Notes under the pieces: generated by a model
Told to the model about the DNA's origin: nothing
The model's input: only the letters and a program-made list of their open reading frames with translations
Database searches by the model: none
DNA from: Hyunsoonleella pacifica
Lineage (GTDB): Bacteria > Bacteroidota > Bacteroidia > Flavobacteriales > Flavobacteriaceae
Assembly: GCF_004310335.1 (NCBI RefSeq)
Contig: NZ_SIRS01000003.1
Coordinates: 248,001-312,000 of the forward strand
Direction of reading: 5' to 3'
DNA length: 64,000 bases
Translations under genes and position numbers: made by a program
Part shown: piece after piece, positions 19,807-31,386 of the stretch
How the letters are laid out: every line of letters starts with the position of its first letter
How positions within the stretch are numbered: the first letter of the stretch is position 1

Positions 19807-22101
19807 CTATGAAATATCTTTTTCAAGCTCCCACATTTCCTTATTCTGAGCATCAATAACTGCTATTGCAGTCATGTTTACTATTTCATCAACACTTGCA
19901 TCTAATTGTAATATATGCACCGGTTTTCGCATACCCATCATGATAGGGCCAATAGAATCAGCCTCATTTAACTCTTTTAATAACTTATATGTAATGTTTG
20001 CAGAATCCAGATTAGGAAAAATTAAACTATTCACTTTTCTGCCTACTAATTTTGAAAAAGGAAACTGATCTCGCAACATTTCATCATTTAAAGCAAAGTC
20101 TGTTTGTAATTCGCCATCTACCACCAAATCGGGATATTGACGATGTAATATAGCCACCGCTTCTCTTACTTTTGAAGCTCTTTCATTATCTGAGGAACCA
20201 AAATTTGAATATGACGTTAATGCCATAACTGGCTCAAAACCAAAAGTTTTTATCACTTTTGATGTCATCACTGCTATTTTAGCTAAATCTTTAGCTGTAG
20301 GATCTATATTTATGGATGTATCACTTAAGAACATAGGTCCTCTTTTTGTCATCATCACATTTGTAGTTGCGATTCTAGTTGCACCTTTAGCCATACCTAT
20401 TAACTCTAACATAGGCTTAACTACTGAAGGGTAATTTCTTGAATATCCTGAAATTAAAGCATCTGCATCTCCTTCATTAACCATCATAGCAGCAAAATAA
20501 TTTCGCTCACGCATCAAACGTTGAGCTGCATAATAGGTAACACCGCGCCTTTTGCGCTGTTCCCAATATACTTTGGCGTAACGGTTTTTTCGATCGTTTT
20601 CTTCTTCTGTCTTTGGATCAACAATAGTAATATCTGCTTCAAAGTCTATTTGCTTCATCAACTCTTCGATAGTTTCTCTTCTACCTAATAATATAGGAAT
20701 AGCAATGCCTTCCTCATGAGCAATTTGTGCAGCTTTTAAAACAGCTAATTGATCTGCTTCTGCGTATACTACACGTTTAGGGTTTAGTTTTGCACGACTT
20801 AAAAGTAATCTTACCAGCTTGTTATCTGAACCCAAGCGTTCTCTTAGTGAATCTTTGTATTTGTCCCAGTCTGTAATTTCAAATTGAGCTACACCACTTT
20901 CCATTGCTGCCTTTGCTACAGCAGGAGGAATTTCTGCTATAAGTCGAGGATCAAATGGTTTTGGAATAATGTATTTTCTACCAAAAGCCAAACGTGTTTG
21001 CTCGTAAGCTACATTTACTTGTTCGGGCACCGGTTCCTTAGCTAAAGCGGCTAATGCTTTAACCGCAGCCATTTTCATTTCTTCATTAATGCAAGTGGCA
21101 CGAACATCTAGTGCGCCTCTAAAGATAAATGGAAAACCTAAAACATTATTTACCTGGTTAGGATGATCACTACGTCCAGTAGCCATAATAATATCATCTC
21201 TTGTATCTACAGCAAGTTGATATTTTATTTCTGGATCTGGGTTAGCCATAGCAAAAACTATAGGATCTTTTGCCATAGCTTTAAGCATTTCAGGAGAAAC
21301 AATGTCTGCCATTGATAGTCCTATAAATACATCAGCATCCTCCATTGCTTCATCTAAAGTATCTATTTTTCTGTGCGTGGCGAATTCTGCTTTTTGAGAG
21401 GTAAGGTTATCTCTATCATCTCTAATAACACCTTTGCTATCTAACATTACCATATTTTCCCGCCTTGCACCACAAGATTGATACAAACGTGAGCAAGAAA
21501 TTGCTGCCGCACCTGCACCACTGATCACAATTTTTACATCCTCAATGTTTTTATTAGCAAGTTCTAAAGCGTTTATTAAGGCCGCTGCAGAAATAATTGC
21601 TGTACCATGTTGGTCATCGTGCATTACCGGAATATCCAGTTCTTCTTTGAGTCGACGCTCTATTTCAAAAGCTTCTGGCGCTTTGATATCCTCTAAATTT
21701 ATACCTCCAAAAGTAGGCGCTATATTTTTTACCGTTTCAATAAAAGCATCTACATTTTTAGTATCTACTTCTATATCAAACACATCAATATCTGCAAAAA
21801 TTTTAAAAAGCAACCCCTTACCTTCCATAACGGGTTTTGATGCTTCGGGACCAATATCGCCAAGACCTAATACTGCTGTTCCATTAGAAATTACAGCTAC
21901 TAAATTCCCTTTGGCTGTGTAACGATACGCATTGTTTTTGTCTTTTTCAATCTCTAAACAAGGCTCTGCTACACCTGGAGAATATGCTAAAGACAAATCT
22001 CTCTGACTTGCGTATTTCTTGGTAGGAACTACTTTTATTTTTCCTGGAGTGGGTTTAGCGTGGTATATTAGTGCTTCTCTTCGCTTACTTTCTTCGCTCA
22101 T
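19807..22101 (-). CDS. maeB: NADP-dependent malic enzyme (malic plus phosphotransacetylase-like domains)
   Basis: The 764-residue protein has the MaeB two-domain layout. The malic enzyme domain (about 1-430) shows YSPGVAEPCLEIEKDK, the dinucleotide-binding VISGAGAAAISCSRLY and MATGRSDHPNQVNNVLGFP. A phosphotransacetylase-like domain (about 440-760) follows, regulatory in known MaeB proteins. It converts malate to pyruvate with NADPH and CO2 formation in the cytoplasm. A -7-like TATATTTG (22127-22134, minus strand) lies just upstream. The queG remnant sits about 60 bases upstream of its start codon. Confidence 0.95.
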   Translation of the reverse strand: MSEESKRREALIYHAKPTPGKIKVVPTKKYASQRDLSLAYSPGVAEPCLEIEKDKNNAYRYTAKGNLVAVISNGTAVLGLGDIGPEASKPVMEGKGLLFKIFADIDVFDIEVDTKNVDAFIETVKNIAPTFGGINLEDIKAPEAFEIERRLKEELDIPVMHDDQHGTAIISAAALINALELANKNIEDVKIVISGAGAAAISCSRLYQSCGARRENMVMLDSKGVIRDDRDNLTSQKAEFATHRKIDTLDEAMEDADVFIGLSMADIVSPEMLKAMAKDPIVFAMANPDPEIKYQLAVDTRDDIIMATGRSDHPNQVNNVLGFPFIFRGALDVRATCINEEMKMAAVKALAALAKEPVPEQVNVAYEQTRLAFGRKYIIPKPFDPRLIAEIPPAVAKAAMESGVAQFEITDWDKYKDSLRERLGSDNKLVRLLLSRAKLNPKRVVYAEADQLAVLKAAQIAHEEGIAIPILLGRRETIEELMKQIDFEADITIVDPKTEEENDRKNRYAKVYWEQRKRRGVTYYAAQRLMRERNYFAAMMVNEGDADALISGYSRNYPSVVKPMLELIGMAKGATRIATTNVMMTKRGPMFLSDTSINIDPTAKDLAKIAVMTSKVIKTFGFEPVMALTSYSNFGSSDNERASKVREAVAILHRQYPDLVVDGELQTDFALNDEMLRDQFPFSKLVGRKVNSLIFPNLDSANITYKLLKELNEADSIGPIMMGMRKPVHILQLDASVDEIVNMTAIAVIDAQNKEMWELEKDIS

Positions 22102-22155
22102 AATAATGGATTGTCAACTAAACCAACAAATATAACAATCCTACGAAGTAAACGC

Positions 22156-22200
22156 CTAATCTTTTAAGAAATTGATATTTCTTTTTAAACCTAAAAAACA
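22156..22200 (-). pseudogene. orphan 3' end of queG (insertion scar)
   Basis: Reading the minus strand in frame from 22200 to 22156 gives [14 protein letters not shown] and a TAG stop. The intact queG ends [14 protein letters not shown] with TAA. A 25-base stretch is identical between 22157-22181 and 30387-30411. Beyond it, differences fall partly at silent positions (TTT/TTC for Phe, GGT/GGA for Gly, AGA/CGA for Arg, TAG/TAA stop). It has no upstream coding part and lies between maeB and the sucrose phosphorylase gene. It marks the left boundary of the sucrose island. Confidence 0.75.
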
Positions 22201-22204
22201 CAAC

Positions 22205-23767
22205 TTAGAAAGCATAAAATTTACTTTCTCCTAATTCAGTATAATCTATTGTGAAGTTATACGTGTTAAGATTTACCTTAAGGTGGGCAAACTCATTTTC
22301 ATTAACCCATTTGATATCGATGATTTTGTGTGAAGACGTATTGATTTCCACAGACCCTGAAAATGCTTTTGATGTATTTCTTAACCTCAACAATTTTAAC
22401 TGATTTAAAACCACATCTTTTTTAAGCCCTTCTTCTATATCTTCTACCGAAAGCGTTGTTCTGTTAATTTCCTTATGTCCACCACTGCCTGCATTATCTG
22501 CAGCTTTATAATCATTTTTACCCGCAAAAATATCCAAGTACCAAACTTGTGGTATTCCTGGCATAAACATTTGAATAGCTCTTGCCAATAATAATTTTTG
22601 CTCACTTTCTCCTAATGCACTGAAAAACGTAGCATTAACTTGGTAATAGGATATTTTTTTACCATTTGGTCCGTATAAATTTTTAACTCTCCCGCCCCGT
22701 TCAATAATAATATCCATGATGTCTTCTATATCTTCATCCAAGAGCAGCCCTTTATAATATACGCTATCTACTTCTTTTCCTTTTAAATCTAAAACAGGTA
22801 TACCATCATGACACCCTAACATATTAACTGTTTTATAGCCTTTATCAATAATCTCGTTAGCCCAATTTAACAACGCATTGCTATCTTTTTTTTCGATAGT
22901 ATGAATCATTAAACCTGGTAGAAAAAAATCATATATTTGATAGCCTTTTTTTGCTACCTCATCATGCAAATATGTACCATATTCTGCATGTATTTCTGGT
23001 AAAAGCGTTAAATTATTTTTATCTGCAATTTGCTTGATACGCTCAAGATAATCCCAAGTTCCTGGTTTATTAAAAAAGTTTGATGCCCCAACAGCTTTAT
23101 GCAAATATGCAAAAGCATCCAGTCGCAATATTTTGCACCCGTAACTACTAACTTTTTGCAGGGTGTCCTTGTAAAAATCCCAAACCAGTTGAGATGTTGC
23201 ATTAACATCCATCTGCCCCAAAACACTGTTATCTGCATTTGTCTTTTGGTAAAACGTATTCCAATAAGGCTCTTCTGATCCATCAGGAAAAGGCACTTTT
23301 AAAACTGGCAATCCTGATTTTCGCATAAATAATTTGTCTAGAAATTCTTTTTTAGGAATGACGATGCCATCCTCTCCCATAGCACCATTACCCTCCCAAA
23401 AGGTATTCCAGTTGATAAAAAAATCCTTGTATTTTGATTGATTTCCGTTTTTAAGCAGGTCTTTAAATTGAGGGGATGCCACCGATAAGTGATTTAATAC
23501 AATATCCAACTTTAGTTGAATATTGAGCTGCTCTAAATCTTCCAAATCAGACTTTGACACTAATTCTTCATTACGATTATAATCAATTATAGAAAATCCC
23601 CTATCTAAATCACTATTAAAGAATGTTGGCAATATGTAAAATAACGAAAATACATCTTTAAACTCTGAGCGTTTAAGCATATTAATAGTATCGCTAAGTG
23701 TTCTGCCAATACTATCTGGGTATGCATTTAACATAACACCGTTTGCAATATTAGAGTCTTTCAACAT
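22205..23767 (-). CDS. sucrose phosphorylase-like GH13 enzyme
   Basis: A 520-residue alpha-amylase-superfamily enzyme without a signal peptide, so cytoplasmic. The catalytic triad is visible: nucleophile D217 in ILRLDAFAYLHK, acid/base E258 in TLLPEIHAEYG, and D321 in LGCHDGIPVLDLKG. The HDGI motif is characteristic of GH13_18 sucrose phosphorylases, which convert sucrose and phosphate to glucose 1-phosphate and fructose. The adjacent PfkB kinase would use the fructose, and the MFS gene encodes a SUT-like transporter. Sucrose-6-phosphate or glucosylglycerate phosphorylase activity cannot be excluded from sequence. It is the last gene of the island. Confidence 0.82.
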   Translation of the reverse strand: MLKDSNIANGVMLNAYPDSIGRTLSDTINMLKRSEFKDVFSLFYILPTFFNSDLDRGFSIIDYNRNEELVSKSDLEDLEQLNIQLKLDIVLNHLSVASPQFKDLLKNGNQSKYKDFFINWNTFWEGNGAMGEDGIVIPKKEFLDKLFMRKSGLPVLKVPFPDGSEEPYWNTFYQKTNADNSVLGQMDVNATSQLVWDFYKDTLQKVSSYGCKILRLDAFAYLHKAVGASNFFNKPGTWDYLERIKQIADKNNLTLLPEIHAEYGTYLHDEVAKKGYQIYDFFLPGLMIHTIEKKDSNALLNWANEIIDKGYKTVNMLGCHDGIPVLDLKGKEVDSVYYKGLLLDEDIEDIMDIIIERGGRVKNLYGPNGKKISYYQVNATFFSALGESEQKLLLARAIQMFMPGIPQVWYLDIFAGKNDYKAADNAGSGGHKEINRTTLSVEDIEEGLKKDVVLNQLKLLRLRNTSKAFSGSVEINTSSHKIIDIKWVNENEFAHLKVNLNTYNFTIDYTELGESKFYAF

Positions 23768-23776
23768 CGTTTAATT

Positions 23777-24715
23777 TTATAAAAGTTCTGATAAAATATT
23801 AATGTTATCTGGTAATCTACCTACATTTTGAAGTTTTAACGCTGCCAGCTGTAGTGCTACTTCCAAGCATTTCTCTATAGGGCGTTTTTTTATGTAAGCA
23901 AACAAAAAACCAGACCAAAAGGCATCTCCAGCTCCTGTGGCATCTTGCACAACATCAATTTGTATAGCTGGTAATTGGATAATATCTTTCCCTTTTTCTG
24001 ATAGCTTTACGCCTTTACTCCCTAGAGTTAAACATATCGTATCAACCCCTTCTGAATGAAAGAAATTAAAAATATCCTCATGTGGAAGTTGTTGCCCAAA
24101 GAGCCTTAACATATCATCTTCACTAATCTTTACTAAGGGATTAAATTTACAGTACGATTTTATTACCTCAATGGCTTCTTCTTGGCTGTTCCATAATTTT
24201 TCAGCGTAGTTTACATCGATACTTAATTTACAACCTAAATTGAACGCTTCTTCAGCCTTTTTTAATATGGTAACTTTCGCTGGGTTTTTACTTAAAGCAA
24301 AACATGTAGTATGAAATATGTTTGTTTTTAAAAGTAAATCTGCGGAGATTTGATGTTCAGCAATATATGCATCTGCTTTTCTAAAAGGTATGAAATCTGG
24401 TGTACTGTCGGTTTTTGATACAAAAACGACACTCGTAGGTTTGTCGTTAATTGTTGCAATGTAACTTGTGTTGACACCAACACCCGTAAGTCGCTCAAAA
24501 ATATATTCTCCAAAACCATCATTGCCCACAGTTGCTACTAAAACAGACTTTAAACCTAATCTCGCTGAATTCATAGCTACATTTGCTGGCGAACCCCCTA
24601 AATACCTATGATAGTCTCTTGTATCATTTATAAGTACACCTGTTTGGTGCCCTATAAAATCTACAAGAACCTCACCTACACATAAAATGTCTATATCTTT
24701 TATATTCTCTTCCAA
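23777..24715 (-). CDS. PfkB-family carbohydrate kinase, probable fructokinase
   Basis: The 312-residue protein has the two PfkB signatures: an N-terminal YLGGSPANVAMNSARLG (about residues 38-54) and the C-terminal anion-hole and catalytic-base motif DATGAGDAFWSGFLFAY, in which the Asp of GAGD acts as base. It would phosphorylate fructose to fructose 6-phosphate with ATP. The gene ends 9 bases before the phosphorylase start and follows the transporter, so it acts on the fructose released inside the cell. 2-Keto-3-deoxygluconate kinase is the main alternative but fits the context less well. Confidence 0.85.
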   Translation of the reverse strand: MEENIKDIDILCVGEVLVDFIGHQTGVLINDTRDYHRYLGGSPANVAMNSARLGLKSVLVATVGNDGFGEYIFERLTGVGVNTSYIATINDKPTSVVFVSKTDSTPDFIPFRKADAYIAEHQISADLLLKTNIFHTTCFALSKNPAKVTILKKAEEAFNLGCKLSIDVNYAEKLWNSQEEAIEVIKSYCKFNPLVKISEDDMLRLFGQQLPHEDIFNFFHSEGVDTICLTLGSKGVKLSEKGKDIIQLPAIQIDVVQDATGAGDAFWSGFLFAYIKKRPIEKCLEVALQLAALKLQNVGRLPDNINILSELL

Positions 24716-24733
24716 AATTATTTTTTCAAAAAA

Positions 24734-26086
24734 TTAATGTCCACCACTTCCCGAAACAATTATATCTTCATCGCCTCCAATAGACTTTGGTTGTTTTAAC
24801 CTCAACGCCAAAATCCCAGCTATTATGAAAAACACTCCACCTAATAGTATGGCTTTAACCGCACTATTATCTAGTAGATGTTTTACTATGGGACCAAATG
24901 TTACCGTTTGGATTCCCATTGGAATTACTATCATCATGTTTAAAATCCCCATATATACCCCACGTCGTTCTTGAGGCACAATTTTAGACACCATAGAATA
25001 CGGAATACCCATCATTGCAGCCCAACCAACACCAAATAATATCATAGGTAAGATTACCAAAAGCGAATCTTGAATGTATGGAATACTTAGCATTGCTATT
25101 CCTGTTAAAAACAGACTAAACACATATACTTTTTTACCGCCAAATTTTAAAGCTAGTGGCACTAGGGCTAGCGCAAAAATTATTGTTGATATATTGTATG
25201 TAGTATTCATTTTAGCAGCCTGACTTAGGGCTTCAGAACTGTTTAACCCCATACTTTCTTTAAACATTGGCGCTATAAATTGCCAATACACAAACAAGGC
25301 ATACCACTGAAATAAATATACACCAGATAACTTCCACATAAACTTGGGCATATCTTTTATAGCACTAACTATCTCTAAAAATGGTGTTTTTATCCTTTCT
25401 GAAAAGGATAGTCTATTATGCTTTTTAATAGCTTCCAATTCTTCTTCAGATGGTGGTATTTCTGGTGTTTTTAGCACTGACCATAGAATTGTTGAAATGG
25501 ACAAAACAGCCCCTATAAAAAAGGAATAGTACAACCATTTTGGTATTGAGGTTACACTTTCGGTAACTTCTTCTACTCCACCAAACCAATCCTGAAAAAG
25601 AAAAATAGAGGCGTTTGCCAATACGATACCTGCACCAACAAATAAACTCTGCATTTGGTAGCCAAAACTTAATTGACGATTTGGTAATTTATCTCCTACA
25701 AAAGCTCTGTATGGCTCCATTGCCATGTTGTTCCCTACATCTAGAATCCACAGTAACCCTACCGCAAACCATAATGCCGGACTAAACGGAAAAGCGAATA
25801 AACATAAACTCCCCAACAAAGCTCCTATTAAAAAGAAAGGCTTACGTCTTCCCCATCGTGGCGACCATGTTTTATCTGAAATTGCCCCAATAATAGGCTG
25901 TATAATTAAACCTGTTACAGGGCCAGCTAAATTTAATAATGGTAACTGGTCGTGCTCTGCACCTAAAAATGAAAAAATAGGATTTACAGCTGTTTGTTGT
26001 AAACCAAAACTATACTGAATCCCCAGAAAACCGACATTCATATTAAAAATCTGCCAAAAGGATAATTTTGGTTTTGCTATTTTCAT
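24734..26086 (-). CDS. MFS sugar (sucrose) transporter, SUT/GPH-like
   Basis: A 450-residue inner-membrane protein with about 12 transmembrane helices. The loop after helix 2 reads SDKTWSPRWGRRKPFFLIGA; the RWGRRKPF pattern is the hallmark of plant SUT/SLC45-type sucrose-proton symporters and their bacterial relatives. The N-terminal NMNVGFLGIQYSFGLQQ also fits that family. It would import sucrose from the periplasm. It starts one base after the glutaredoxin gene end (26088), and these genes to the phosphorylase form one operon. Maltose is the alternative substrate, but the PfkB and phosphorylase genes favour sucrose. Confidence 0.85.
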   Translation of the reverse strand: MKIAKPKLSFWQIFNMNVGFLGIQYSFGLQQTAVNPIFSFLGAEHDQLPLLNLAGPVTGLIIQPIIGAISDKTWSPRWGRRKPFFLIGALLGSLCLFAFPFSPALWFAVGLLWILDVGNNMAMEPYRAFVGDKLPNRQLSFGYQMQSLFVGAGIVLANASIFLFQDWFGGVEEVTESVTSIPKWLYYSFFIGAVLSISTILWSVLKTPEIPPSEEELEAIKKHNRLSFSERIKTPFLEIVSAIKDMPKFMWKLSGVYLFQWYALFVYWQFIAPMFKESMGLNSSEALSQAAKMNTTYNISTIIFALALVPLALKFGGKKVYVFSLFLTGIAMLSIPYIQDSLLVILPMILFGVGWAAMMGIPYSMVSKIVPQERRGVYMGILNMMIVIPMGIQTVTFGPIVKHLLDNSAVKAILLGGVFFIIAGILALRLKQPKSIGGDEDIIVSGSGGH

Positions 26087-26087
26087 C

Positions 26088-26453
26088 TTATTTTGTTTTT
26101 TCTATTAAACTTTTTAGAAAGCCCTTAAAATTAGTTACATCATTCATCTTTAAGCTTCTTCCATTTATATCTACTACGGGAAGTGATATAGCATCTAGAG
26201 GTATTCCTGCATTTTGCAATTTTTCCACCATCTCTTTTTGCTTTTCTAGGCGCACATCTACATCATAATACACAAATTCTACATGCTGTTCTTTTAAAAA
26301 CACTTTAGTGTCTGTGCAATAATGGCACGTATCACTACCATACACAATTACGGTATCCTGTTTTACTACTTCTTTATCTGTACGTTTATCTTGACCAAAA
26401 CCTATTAAACCAAAAGTTAAACTAAATACTACACACAACACAAAACCTCTCAT
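26088..26453 (-). CDS. secreted glutaredoxin-like protein in the sucrose operon
   Basis: A 121-residue protein with a signal peptide (about 1-20, ending GFGQ), then a glutaredoxin fold. The redox motif is CHYC in VYGSDTCHYCTDTKVFL (about residues 43-46), and the cis-proline strand is AISLPVVDINGRSL. It should act in the periplasm or at the membrane, which is unusual for a glutaredoxin. It is sandwiched between the TonB receptor (with a hairpin between) and the transporter, and lies one base from the transporter gene. Its job in sucrose use is unknown; reduction of a partner's disulfide is only a guess. Confidence 0.8.
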   Translation of the reverse strand: MRGFVLCVVFSLTFGLIGFGQDKRTDKEVVKQDTVIVYGSDTCHYCTDTKVFLKEQHVEFVYYDVDVRLEKQKEMVEKLQNAGIPLDAISLPVVDINGRSLKMNDVTNFKGFLKSLIEKTK

Positions 26454-26479
26454 ATTTTAACTTTTTTATTTGGATGACA

Positions 26480-26514
26480 AAAAGAGTTGGACCTTATTTA
26501 ACTCCAACTCTTTT
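26480..26514 (-). terminator. hairpin between receptor and glutaredoxin genes
   Basis: A 12-bp perfect inverted repeat (AAAAGAGTTGGA and TCCAACTCTTTT) with an 11-base loop, flanked by A/T runs. On the minus strand it follows the TonB receptor gene. It probably stops or reduces read-through, giving more receptor mRNA than enzyme mRNA. Confidence 0.8.
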
Positions 26515-26551
26515 ATTAACAACCTGAAATCAAACTAAACTAACCCATTTT

Positions 26552-29179
26552 TTAAAACTTATACTGTAACGACAGTGTAGTGGAACGACCACTAATTGAT
26601 CTTGCTCTTACTAAACGATTTGAACCAAAAGCGCCATCTCCATTTCCTTCAACTTCTGTGATACCAACTGTATCAAAGAGATTGTTTACACTCAATACAA
26701 GAGAAAGCCCATCTGTTAAACCTGCTCTACCTATTAAGTTAAAGTAAGCATAAGCTGGCATTACTAAATCGTTATCATCTTGTGCATAAGATTTTGTTGT
26801 ACCTAATATGCTTAATGCCAAACCATGCTGACTGTTTTCTCCAAAATTATATGATGGCGATAAGTTATAAACCAAATCTGCTTGTCTTCTAGGTTTGTTC
26901 CCTTTATTGTCTCCACCATCTATTTCGGCTTTTGTCCAAGTAAACGAACCATTAAAGTTGAAGTTTTCTCCAAAGGCAAGTGCTGTTTCTGCTTCAATAC
27001 CTAATGCTTTAAATGGATTACCTACAGATCTGTTTAATTCATTACTCAACCCTTCATCAGTATTACTCATAAATCCTGTAAGGTTAAGCACTCCATTGTT
27101 TAATCTTTTCTTGAAACCAACTTCTAATTGTGATACTTCATCGTACTGCACATCTGCCTTACCATCTGTACCATAATTATTTCTATCTGGAGCTCTTCCT
27201 GATGCACCAGAACTATATCTTGCAAATACAGCTGATCCTTGATTCAATTTATAATTTAAACCTGCTGAGAAAGACACAAAGTTATAATCGTCATTTATTA
27301 TTTGTCCCGCATTACCTGCAATTACCGGTACCACTTGCTCTATCCCTTCTATTGTACCATTTCCATCATAATCATATGAATCTTGGCTACTAGGTCCATT
27401 AGCTATTGTTCCATTTACATTTACGTTTTCAAAACGTATACTTCCATCAAAATTTAATTTTTCGGTTATCTCTGCATCAACACCTACATACGGCGAATTC
27501 ACATTGTGTACAGTATTATATCTACGCTGGCAACAATTACCCCATACTGGCGTACCATAAGAGTATTGTCCGTTTCTTGAGAAACCATCAAAATCTGCCA
27601 ATCTTGCTTCTCCACCACCTTTAACTTCAGAAATAAATGAACTCCATTGCCATCCTATTTTTGTGTTTTGAGTTGCCGTAAACAATCCTGCAGTTACGCC
27701 AACATTATCACTTAATTTTTTTGAGATTTTTACATCACTAAAAAAGTTACTTAAGTCATCTACCGTTACATCAAACATGTGTATAATTTGAGCCAAACCA
27801 TTTGATGGGTTAAATACTTCTCTATCGCCATCAGCATATACCAAAGTACCTGTAGCATTTGAAGCGTCTCTGGCTGTAGTTTCAATTTCAGAAACTGTAC
27901 CTACTGCTGCTGTAAATGGCGATACCCATTCTCCGCTATTATTAGAGTAACGCGCTTTACCTGCTATTTTCCAATCGCTTCCCAAGTCAAAAGAAAACTC
28001 AGTCCCTAATGATTTAGACACAGGATTGTTTCCATTTCTAACATCATTTACATGTCTTCCACCTCCATCAAAAGGATTTGTTCCAGCACTTTGTTGTAAG
28101 TATGCTGAGTGTTGAGAATCACTAGTAATATCAAAACCTGGTAAATTTGAAAATGTTGGATCATCATTGTTTCCTTCCAATAACATTGGCATAGGTAAAT
28201 ACATCACAGATCTATCATTTAATAGTTTAGCATAAACTCGCACATAACCCGCATCAAATCTTTTTGTAAGATTTGCTTTAAATTGCCCTCCTTTATTACC
28301 TTGATACCCTATATCTCTAGGACCTTCTCCTGTTCTAATAAAACCACCGAAGTGATAAGACATTCCATTTTCTAATGGTGCACCATACTCGAAATCCAAC
28401 CTACTTGTTTGGTAATCTAACCCAAAAGTTGTCCCTAAAGAACCTCCTTCTGTAGCACCAGTTTTACTAATCATATTAATAATACCTGCTGGACCATTAG
28501 ACGTTTGCGTAGATGCTGAACCCCCTCTAATAGCCTCAACTCTTCCTATGTTAGAATCTATTCTTAAAAAATTATCCGCATTTCCAAAAGACGTATCTCC
28601 AAATAAATTTAATGGTAATCCATCTTCTTGAATTTGAAAATATCTTGATCCCCCTGAAGAAATTGGCACACCACGTACATTAAAGTTTGCATTACCCTCA
28701 CCTCCTGAAGACTCTGCACGAATACCAGGAATATTTCTAAAAAGTTCACCCGAACTCCTTGGTGCAGCCTGTTCTATCAACTCTATATCCATAGTTGAAA
28801 CAGATACACTGGATTCTATTTTAGATTTAGGATTAACAACACCTGTTACAATGATCTGATCTAAAGATTGCGCATCCTCTTTCATAATAACATCTACTGT
28901 AATATCATTACCTTGTACAGTAACCTGTTGCGAAAACTTTGCGTACCCTAAAAATGTAGCAGATAATGTGTAATCGCCATTTTCTATATCGTTAATAATA
29001 TAATTTCCATCAAAATCTGTAACTGCTCCTTTAGTAGTACCTTCTAAAATAACATTTACACCTGGCAATGGCACTCCTGCTTCGTCTTTAACGTTTCCCG
29101 ATATTGATTGTGCGATTAATGCGCTTGTAGATAACAGCATCAATACCAATAAAAACGTACTTTTTTTAATTGCATTCAT
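26552..29179 (-). CDS. TonB-dependent receptor of the sucrose island
   Basis: The 875-residue protein has a signal peptide (about 1-23), a carboxypeptidase-regulatory-like domain (about 24-105, GNVKDEAGVPLPGVNVILEG), a plug domain with the TonB-box-like DQIIVTGVV and then a 22-strand-type barrel ending in the aromatic SLQYKF. It is shorter than SusC proteins (about 1,000 residues) and there is no susD gene next to it, so it resembles a classical receptor rather than a SusCD pair. It presumably takes sucrose or a related sugar across the outer membrane. The paired LacI operators lie upstream of its promoter region. Confidence 0.88.
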   Translation of the reverse strand: MNAIKKSTFLLVLMLLSTSALIAQSISGNVKDEAGVPLPGVNVILEGTTKGAVTDFDGNYIINDIENGDYTLSATFLGYAKFSQQVTVQGNDITVDVIMKEDAQSLDQIIVTGVVNPKSKIESSVSVSTMDIELIEQAAPRSSGELFRNIPGIRAESSGGEGNANFNVRGVPISSGGSRYFQIQEDGLPLNLFGDTSFGNADNFLRIDSNIGRVEAIRGGSASTQTSNGPAGIINMISKTGATEGGSLGTTFGLDYQTSRLDFEYGAPLENGMSYHFGGFIRTGEGPRDIGYQGNKGGQFKANLTKRFDAGYVRVYAKLLNDRSVMYLPMPMLLEGNNDDPTFSNLPGFDITSDSQHSAYLQQSAGTNPFDGGGRHVNDVRNGNNPVSKSLGTEFSFDLGSDWKIAGKARYSNNSGEWVSPFTAAVGTVSEIETTARDASNATGTLVYADGDREVFNPSNGLAQIIHMFDVTVDDLSNFFSDVKISKKLSDNVGVTAGLFTATQNTKIGWQWSSFISEVKGGGEARLADFDGFSRNGQYSYGTPVWGNCCQRRYNTVHNVNSPYVGVDAEITEKLNFDGSIRFENVNVNGTIANGPSSQDSYDYDGNGTIEGIEQVVPVIAGNAGQIINDDYNFVSFSAGLNYKLNQGSAVFARYSSGASGRAPDRNNYGTDGKADVQYDEVSQLEVGFKKRLNNGVLNLTGFMSNTDEGLSNELNRSVGNPFKALGIEAETALAFGENFNFNGSFTWTKAEIDGGDNKGNKPRRQADLVYNLSPSYNFGENSQHGLALSILGTTKSYAQDDNDLVMPAYAYFNLIGRAGLTDGLSLVLSVNNLFDTVGITEVEGNGDGAFGSNRLVRARSISGRSTTLSLQYKF

Positions 29180-29225
29180 TTTTGTCTTTTTTAGTTATTC
29201 GATAAATAATTGAGTTGATTTTTGT

Positions 29226-29233
29226 CAAATCTA
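29226..29233 (-). promoter_or_regulatory. possible -7 element for the sucrose operon
   Basis: On the minus strand 29226-29233 reads TAGATTTG, matching TAnnTTTG. It is 46 bases upstream of the receptor start codon. No TTG is found at the usual -33 spacing, which would fit a promoter that needs help from an activator bound at the adjacent palindromes. Confidence 0.45.
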
Positions 29234-29267
29234 TATTTATAAGCCATATAAAATATGTTTTTATTAA

Positions 29268-29303
29268 TCGAAAACGTTTTCGAAAATAACGAAAACGTTT
29301 TCG
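29268..29303. promoter_or_regulatory. paired LacI-family operators
   Basis: Two palindromes lie between the divergent lacI and receptor genes: TCGAAAACGTTTTCGA at 29268-29283 and CGAAAACGTTTTCG at 29290-29303. Both share the core GAAAACGTTTTC with the central CG typical of LacI-family operators. The centres are 21 bases apart, two helical turns, so two dimers would bind on the same face of the DNA. They are probably bound by the adjacent regulator. Confidence 0.88.
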
Positions 29304-29351
29304 ATTTTATATTTTTAATATATTTATTACCTGAAATTAAACTCATTTTTA

Positions 29352-30389
29352 ATGAAAATTGTTACTCTAAGAGATATTGCAGAACAATTAAACATTTCTG
29401 TAACCACAGTTTCTAAAGCACTAAAGGATTATCCTGATGTTAGCAAAAAAACTAAATTGCAGGTACGAGAACTTGCTAAAACCCTAAATTATAAGCCCAA
29501 CGCTTTTGCTGTTAACCTAAGAACTAGAGAATCTAAAACCATTGGTCTAATTATCCCTGTGATTGTGCATCATTTTTTTTCGAATGTTATTAAAGGTATT
29601 ATTTCCCAAGCTGAAAAAAAAGGGTACCTGGTTATTATTCTTCAATCGGATGAATCTTATGAATTAGAAAAAAAGCAAGTTGAATTATTATTAAGTCAAC
29701 GTGTAGATGGTATTATTATCTCTTTAGCTAATGGCACTGCTAAGTATGATCATTTAAATGAAATTATCGCTCAAGGAAAACCTTTAGTAATGTTCGATAA
29801 AATTGCTAAAATGGTAAAGTGTTCAAAAGTTATAATAGACGATAGAAAAGCGGCTTATACCGCAACGCAACATTTAATTGATATTGGTTGTAAACGCATT
29901 GCCCACTTTAGAGGAGCTCTGTTACCACAAAACTCTATTGATAGGTTTTTAGGCTACAAAAAAGCTTTGTTAGATAATGACTTGCCTTACGATCCGTCCT
30001 TGGTGTATATCTGTGAATGCGGCGATATGAGTTTTGAAGAGGGTAAAAAAAATGCAAAACAATTGTTAGAAGATCATGATGATGTAGATGGTATTTTTAT
30101 AAATACTGATTTGGTTGCTATAGGTGCCATGACTGCATTTCAGGAAATGGGCGTAAAAATTCCTGAAGACATTAGTATTGTTGGGTTTAGTAATTGGTTT
30201 ATGTCGTCTGTAATATCCCCAAGTCTTACCACTATAAATCAACCAGGGTTTGAAATGGGAAAAAGGGCCTTTAAACAACTTTTTAAAGAAATTAAAGCCC
30301 GCAAAAAAGAGAAACCTTTTGAACCTAAAACCGTGGTTTTAGAAACAGATTTGATTGTTAGAACATCAACAAAAACTAATATTACTTAA
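29352..30389 (+). CDS. LacI-family transcriptional regulator
   Basis: A 345-residue regulator. The N-terminal helix-turn-helix and hinge are clear ([21 protein letters not shown], about residues 4-24, and the hinge up to about 60). A periplasmic-binding-protein-like effector domain follows (about 60-335), with motifs [19 protein letters not shown] and [15 protein letters not shown]. It is divergent from the sucrose operon and should sense sucrose or a derived sugar. Its stop codon (30387-30389) is the first base triplet of the duplicated queG end and overlaps the queG stop, so the gene runs exactly to the island junction. Confidence 0.92.
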
Positions 30390-31351
30390 TCTTTTAAGAA
30401 ATTGATATTTCGGTTTAATCCAGAGAATTTAGTGCGTTTTACTGCTGATTTTTTAAATACCTTTCTAAAGGTTTCTTCTGTGATGTCCTCCCAATCTTTT
30501 TTTGACATACTTAATAATTCTGGATGTGGATTGAATAGTGGCTCACTATGTGATTTTGAGAATCTATTCCATGGGCATACATCTTGACAGACATCGCAAC
30601 CAAACATCCAATCATCAAACTTTCCTTTAAATTCTGTAGGTATATTGTCTTTGAGTTCTATAGTGAAATATGAAATGCATTTACTGCCATCTACAACATA
30701 AGGCTCAACAATAGCTTCTGTTGGGCAGGCGTCAATACATGCCGTACAAGTGCCACAATGATCTGTTACTGGTGTATCGTACTCTAACTCTAAATCAATA
30801 ATAAGCTCAGCAATAAAATAGAAAGAACCTATTTGCTGTGTTAGTAAATTAGAGTGTTTCCCAATCCATCCCAAACCAGATTTTGCTGCCCAAGCTTTAT
30901 CTAAAACGGGTGCTGAATCTACAAAAGCACGTCCATTAACTTCCCCTATTTCATCTTGAATAAAGTGCAATAGTGATTTTAGTTTGTCTTTGATAACGAA
31001 ATGGTAATCTGTACCATAGGCGTACTTTGATAGTTTATAGCTTTCTGTGTTTTGTGTTTCTGAAGGAAAATAATTTAGTAACAAGGATACTACACTTTTT
31101 GAATCTTCAACTAATTTTGTGGGATCTAAGCGTTTATCAAAATGGTTTTCCATATAACGCATCTCTCCGTGCATATTTTGGTTTAACCATCGTTCTAATC
31201 GTGGTGCTTCTTCTTCTAAAAATTCGGCTTTACTAATACCACAAGACAAAAAACCGAGGCGTTTGGCTTCGGTTTTAATGATAGAAGCCCTCTCTCTAGC
31301 TCTCTCCCGAGGGGAGAGAGAACTCATACTCAAGTCTTTCTTTCTACTCAT
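30386..31351 (-). CDS. queG: epoxyqueuosine reductase QueG
   Basis: The protein makes queuosine in tRNA by reducing epoxyqueuosine with cobalamin and two 4Fe-4S clusters. The ferredoxin motifs are [16 protein letters not shown] and [13 protein letters not shown]. The substrate region [20 protein letters not shown] is present. I chose the ATG at 31351 (MSRKKDL); a further TTG at 31378 lies inside a repeat and is unlikely. Residues about 9-20 ([12 protein letters not shown]) derive from a GC-rich repeat inserted before the conserved [19 protein letters not shown]. From ATG the length is 321. Its last codons are duplicated at 22156. Confidence 0.93.
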
Positions 31352-31386
31352 AATATTTCCTCCCCTTTGAGGAGGCAAGGTGGGTT
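31290..31386. repeat. GC-rich hairpin repeats at the queG start and queG-ruvB gap
   Basis: Two units lie side by side. One has CTCTCTCCC (31300-31308) paired with GGGAGAGAG (31312-31320) and is inside the queG reading frame. The other has CCTCC (31359-31363) paired with GGAGG (31371-31375), followed by CAAGGTGGGTTTTA in the gap to ruvB. Both are GC-rich patches in an AT-rich genome and resemble the units at 11780-11880. Confidence 0.65.

Follow-up and report, generated by a model that had tools for sequence, protein, structure and literature searches.

Across much of the Flavobacteriaceae, the final queG codons probably double as a promoter element of the neighbouring gene maeB, which would constrain their synonymous sites, and the insertion of a sugar cluster, once or repeatedly, would have duplicated this stretch and split its two jobs. 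We give this reading a probability of roughly 0.6. It draws together a duplicated gene end, empty sites, a fixed spacing to a predicted promoter, a constraint near maeB and conflicting trees of the island genes. The window analysed here is a stretch of 64,000 nucleotides from Hyunsoonleella pacifica (contig NZ_SIRS01000003.1, positions 248,001 to 312,000), and all coordinates below count from its first base.

The duplicated queG end and the island of the window

The gene queG, for the tRNA-modification enzyme epoxyqueuosine reductase (TIGR00276), lies on the minus strand at 30386..31378. Its own 3' end (30386..30421, minus strand) was compared with the other copy of the repeat, which adjoins maeB (22156..22191, minus strand, 36 nt) and is the proposed upstream promoter element of that gene. 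The 25 bases at 22157-22181 and 30387-30411 are identical, as a first-pass annotation of this DNA had reported, and 32 of 35 positions agree between 22157-22191 and 30387-30421. We observed no longer exact direct repeat between 18000 and 35000; in first-order Markov shuffles the maximum was 18, and none of 200 reached 25. Translated in the queG frame, the copy adjoining maeB yields the QueG C-terminus, and direct repeats derived from the end of the target gene are present at both island edges. A search of the same genome with up to three mismatches returned only the two known copies, and a role of the motif as a regulon site was rejected for this reason.

The proposed beneficiary of the element, maeB (19807..22101, minus strand), encodes by its domain matches an NADP malic enzyme with a phosphotransacetylase domain. 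Between the repeats, the minus strand carries genes for a sucrose phosphorylase (22205..23767; TIGR03852, 343.2 bits for a cut-off of 334.4), a PfkB-family sugar kinase, probably a fructokinase (23777..24715; NCBIfam matches below cut-off), an MFS transporter (24734..26086), whose best NCBIfam match is that of sucrose/proton symporters (TIGR01301, below cut-off), a small protein with a glutaredoxin domain match (26088..26453) and a TonB-dependent receptor (26552..29179; family matches). A LacI-family regulator (29352..30389, plus strand; family matches), the type to which SuxR also belongs, is convergent with queG, the two coding ends overlapping by 4 nt. Between regulator and receptor are two perfect CGAAAACGTTTTCG palindromes (29269-29282 and 29290-29303), probable LacI-type operators, and at least one CGnnAACGTTnnCG site occurs between lacI and the receptor gene in 30 of 33 among the islands listed. 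These observations agree with the gene content claimed earlier (transporter, phosphorylase, kinase, receptor, regulator and operators). The claimed absence of an integrase or transposase was confirmed for the six cargo proteins of the window, none of which matched such a family. Truncation of lacI by the island was considered and rejected, LacI ending shortly past the same residues wherever the island sits. A plasmid search using ruvB gave no match.

With a receptor, an inner-membrane transporter, a sucrose enzyme and a regulator together, the island is by annotation a sucrose CUT locus. The same four functions make up the sux CUT locus of Xanthomonas in the excerpt of Blanvillain et al. (2007, PMC1790865), the window being known by annotation only. 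Unlike the locus described in that excerpt, the window has a sucrose phosphorylase and a sugar kinase rather than amylosucrase, as well as a glutaredoxin-like gene, and the phylum differs.

The queG-maeB interval in Hyunsoonleella and across the family

The phosphorylase is present in 5 of 12 genomes of the genus, and in all five it stands beside maeB with a copy of the queG end. Two congeners lacking it, G001 and G003, have an empty site, with maeB 51 and 54 bp past queG, respectively; relatives in which maeB directly follows queG, as anticipated, were thus found. Together with the five copies, these empty sites support the earlier proposal that the island was inserted at the queG 3' end and left an extra end beside maeB. 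In the other phosphorylase-free congeners the gap measures 120 (G011), 133 (G006), 323 (G005), 1162 (G004) and 4080 bp (G009).

Several side observations were made in these genomes. In H. aestuarii (L124, G068), which the genome set assigns to another genus, the phosphorylase lies elsewhere and the queG-maeB site is empty. The interval of G009 holds what looks by eye, from its open reading frames, like a sulfur-metabolism module, with genes that we take to be FadL-, SQR-, DsrC- and DsrE-like; the same module is found in G007, placed between queG and lacI. G010 contains two full rpoB genes on different contigs, which suggests a mixed assembly.

The view of the island as a local one did not hold, the same type of cluster occupying the same interval in many genera. 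Among the loci examined, 32 distinct ones from many genera have a sucrose phosphorylase cluster in the interval between queG and maeB. By hand count, 43 of the 80 named phosphorylase loci, again from many genera, have maeB on the stretch that was fetched, and many of them keep one gene order; a recent, strain-specific island was rejected on this evidence. The genera with both genes include Hyunsoonleella, Algibacter, Aestuariivivens, Marixanthotalea, Tamlana, Winogradskyella, Seonamhaeicola, Polaribacter, Maribacter, Olleya and others. The condition under which the insertion was to be doubted, that most relatives share the island and its duplication, applies to many relatives but not to most, since the phosphorylase (E <= 1e-100) was found in 26 of 249 family genomes of an even draw. 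By coordinates, among the matches listed, at least 10 of these 26 phosphorylases are no more than about 3 kb away from maeB, and at least 7 are elsewhere.

We sorted 87 distinct queG-maeB loci by gap: 15 have less than 150 bp, 5 have 150-600 bp and 67 have 600 bp or more (32 have the phosphorylase), in a sample biased to filled sites, which were chosen partly for being filled. Other cargo includes a GH32/receptor cluster between queG and maeB (L167) and an SSF-MFS-trehalase-GH100 invertase cluster with LacI and a kinase (L168). Over the 87 loci, conserved flanks therefore enclose variable content, as expected of a hotspot. Gene-transfer hotspots without mobile elements are known (Oliveira et al. 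2017, PMC5635113); as far as the excerpt of that paper goes, the interval resembles them in its conserved core flanks and variable cargo and in that the window island has no recognisable mobile genes, exchange fitting homologous recombination at the flanks. It differs from the hotspots of the excerpt in that one insertion edge duplicates a gene end still under selection. Among the titles and abstract beginnings listed, none concerned the queG-maeB interval itself.

Some inserts are large, about 34 kb (L162-L163, G252) and about 17 kb (L166, G070), the latter with a 148-aa frame that resembles by eye an IS200-type transposase. Directly 3' of queG, seven loci (L036, L193, L200, L174, L096, L097 and L150) share a conserved segment of about 200 bp with an opposite-strand frame of 40-45 codons, open in six of the seven and ending in several with ...YKRALEIPYR. 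The frame is preceded by TTAACATTAAATTTACA-like words, which we take to be Pho-box-like, and a protein search of 60 relatives recovered it in one. The lacI stubs of L193 and L036 were considered as scars of loss; the downstream stretch that they share is this separate segment.

The trees of the island genes disagree. Hyunsoonleella forms one clade for maeB (99/90, 12 rows) and for LacI (93/83, 4 rows), and it does not for the phosphorylase (SucP) or the kinase (FrkA) (AU p 0.00018 each, 5 rows), so that phylogenetic conflict of the kind left by exchange is seen for these two. Seonamhaeicola aphaedonensis groups with Hyunsoonleella for LacI, with three of the five for the phosphorylase, and not for maeB. 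When the window was compared with H. ulvae, DNA identity averaged 93.4% over 22.0-31.0 kb (18 bins) versus 87.8% below (10 bins) and 89.6% above (3 bins), all hand averages. The tree conflict and the identity profile fit recombination in the flanks, together with an exchange of genes within the island. Of the two mechanisms suggested at first, homologous recombination would thus suit the later spread, and for an integrase using a gene end as target there was no candidate among the six proteins. The queG tree pairs G007 with G009 (94/92, not starred), unlike rpoB, and these are the two genomes that share the FadL/SQR/DsrC/DsrE-like module. We also noted MFS types (about 55 versus 83-95% identity) and receptor types (about 45-52, 63-70 and 78-98%) that are exchanged between otherwise similar islands.

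Position and constraint of the copy and of the queG end

The copy was searched for with a 36-column profile built from 54 distinct real queG ends. The profile recovered it in 20 of the 71 loci whose gap is at least 300 bp, namely 16 of 32 with the phosphorylase and 4 of 39 without. None of 500 shuffles reached the score of any of the 20, the weakest score being 13.0 (L192), and the locus null was 0.007 for L177 and zero for the other 19. Non-phosphorylase content beside a copy comprises three types of cargo and a single gap that lacks an open frame (L167, L184, L192 and L193), and G010 and L131 have copies too, both on stretches without queG. No copy was found in 16 phosphorylase loci and 35 of 39 others; loss or replacement of the element is therefore possible, which makes it dispensable or replaceable. 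In 16 loci with LacI and with neither queG nor maeB in the stretch, no convincing queG end was detected at the island edge, and the repeat was not seen to travel to other sites there as that of an integrative element does. Borderline matches in L104, L106, L117 (15.6-19.9 bits), L128 and L148 were read and judged to be chance; the one in L117 (19.9 bits) sits about 1 kb outside lacI. In Algibacter amylolyticus, near L131:11790-11825, an inverted copy of the middle part precedes the queG-end copy and forms with it a palindrome of about 13-14 bp per arm, by eye.

The predicted promoter box of maeB is TATATTTG (22127..22134, minus strand), 21 nt from the element, a match to TAnnTTTG, which we take to be the flavobacterial promoter box. 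The copy ends 21-22 nt ahead of TAnnTTTG in 19 of 20 cases, and in empty loci the queG stop is 20-22 nt ahead of it in 30 of 32; the background is 107 of 2042 60-nt windows from 40 loci. With the box set at -12 to -5, the core AGAAAYATCAATTTYTTAAAAGAT falls at about -60 to -37. UP elements are A+T-rich, lie directly upstream of the core promoter at a fixed spacing and usually occupy about -60 to -37. Like them, the proposed element is A+T-rich and keeps a fixed position just upstream of the predicted core promoter; unlike them, this putative element would ancestrally lie inside a neighbouring coding sequence.

The copy had been regarded as an inert left-over, a view that the comparison of its letters contradicts. 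In 15 loci with the phosphorylase near maeB, chosen because the copy is recognisable, similarity over the final 27 nt of the copy is 82.4%, and at the third positions of maeB it is 52.3%; the copy exceeds these in 105 of 105 pairs, and 0 of 2000 blocks reach its value. In the same loci the 24 nt upstream are 39.8% alike, the 29 nt downstream 56.1% and the phosphorylase third positions 55.9%. The 20 copies are 74.7% alike among themselves versus 63.6% to their own queG, which argues against gene conversion.

We then compared the queG end between empty and filled loci. The first test took in the whole sample, with 16 empty and 66 filled loci, and did not reach significance (p 0.17, or p 0.31 at third positions); the test limited to maeB identity of at least 80% gave p 0.03 (third positions p 0.10). 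Among nearer relatives, with 6 empty loci, third-position similarity is 78.1% in the seven final queG codons versus 53.2% elsewhere in queG; the cut of 83% maeB identity was picked after viewing three cuts. The follow-up used 40 newly fetched loci, with a gap below 150 bp in 39 and of 161 bp in one. At maeB identity of at least 83%, the last seven codons of the 26 new empty loci are 67.5% alike at third positions, a value reached by 2 of 113 other blocks; for 35 filled loci the same measure is 53.5%, reached by 56 of 113. At 80% or more, 34 new empty loci give 59.9%, a level that 18 of 113 blocks attain, while the value elsewhere is 52.5%. When third positions were compared with the copy consensus, similarity was 0.80 in 32 empty versus 0.59 in 35 filled loci (p 9e-5; new loci only, p 4e-4). 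When the 32 closest empty/filled pairs were examined, the empty locus was higher in 21 and the filled one in 5, with 6 ties (sign p 0.002); the 20 closest pairs gave 12 and 3 (p 0.04), and the pair difference occurred in 0 of 113 control blocks. On well-supported branches the pair test comprises 2 pairs, and the queG tree has at least 22 changes between the empty and filled states. The constraint tracks proximity to maeB, an effect that is clear only within the set of nearer relatives.

Proposed origin of the duplication and its meaning

We consider it quite likely, from the comparisons above, that the queG end and an upstream promoter element of maeB overlap, and that duplication of this end admitted the island without disabling either gene. 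In the ancestral arrangement, about the last nine codons of queG would have been both the QueG C-terminus and an A+T-rich element upstream of maeB, at a fixed 20-22 nt before the TAnnTTTG box, and acting in maeB transcription in the manner of an UP element or as an activator site. A disaccharide cluster would have entered at the queG stop codon, leaving the stretch on both sides, so that queG kept its end and maeB its element. For the first insertion, homologous pairing within queG at one edge and an illegitimate join at the opposite edge would give this outcome, as would the single crossover of a circle. Afterwards, the maeB-side copy would have remained under constraint, whereas only the needs of the protein would have limited drift in the queG copy, and the cluster would have spread and swapped genes through recombination in the flanks that the loci share. 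Loss probably gave rise to some of the empty or copy-less lineages.

Direct repeats at the 3' end of a gene are typical of integrase or crossover events, and the repeat could be an inert scar, that is, an attachment-site or single-crossover duplication made by an integrase-borne or circular element since lost. The similar copies beside three other cargo types and in one frameless gap (L167, L184, L192 and L193) would agree with this, but we find it unlikely: a scar shared by several genera should drift like third positions, and the copy is far more conserved; moreover, no queG end was seen at the island edge in the 16 LacI loci without queG and maeB, nor an integrase among the six cargo proteins. 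Some islands integrate at gene 3' ends with direct repeats and leave the gene intact, and the present case is like them in its directly repeated gene end and intact gene. It is unlike them in that no integrase was seen, off-site islands lack the repeat and the second copy is conserved rather than inert.

It is also rather improbable that the copies are alike only through recent transfer of island and copy between genera, or through gene conversion from queG. Exchange across genera is real, as the phosphorylase and kinase break the Hyunsoonleella clade that maeB keeps, but phosphorylase (55.9%) and maeB (52.3%) third positions and the 24 nt upstream (39.8%) are not alike, the copies are closer to one another than to their own queG, and empty loci without any island have the same conserved letters. 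That the copy serves the sucrose operon instead of maeB, be it as a terminator or as the 3' end of an mRNA, seems very improbable. The copy does start 6-69 nt past the phosphorylase stop, and for 2 of 15 copies the fold is better than a z of -2; however, the mean fold z over the 15 is -0.44, which does not support an RNA hairpin, the spacing is fixed to the maeB promoter and not to the phosphorylase stop, and empty loci are constrained even without the operon.

Gene-end duplications at island edges are usually taken as integrase footprints. Judged from sequence, the present case suggests that selection kept the duplicate because of the promoter element of a neighbour, which may provide a general reason for inserts to settle exactly at gene ends and to retain a copy. 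The matched sets of genomes have coding and regulatory constraint on one DNA stretch either joined or split. If the reading in which the queG end also serves maeB is true, they would represent a natural separation experiment for the coding and regulatory jobs of this gene end.
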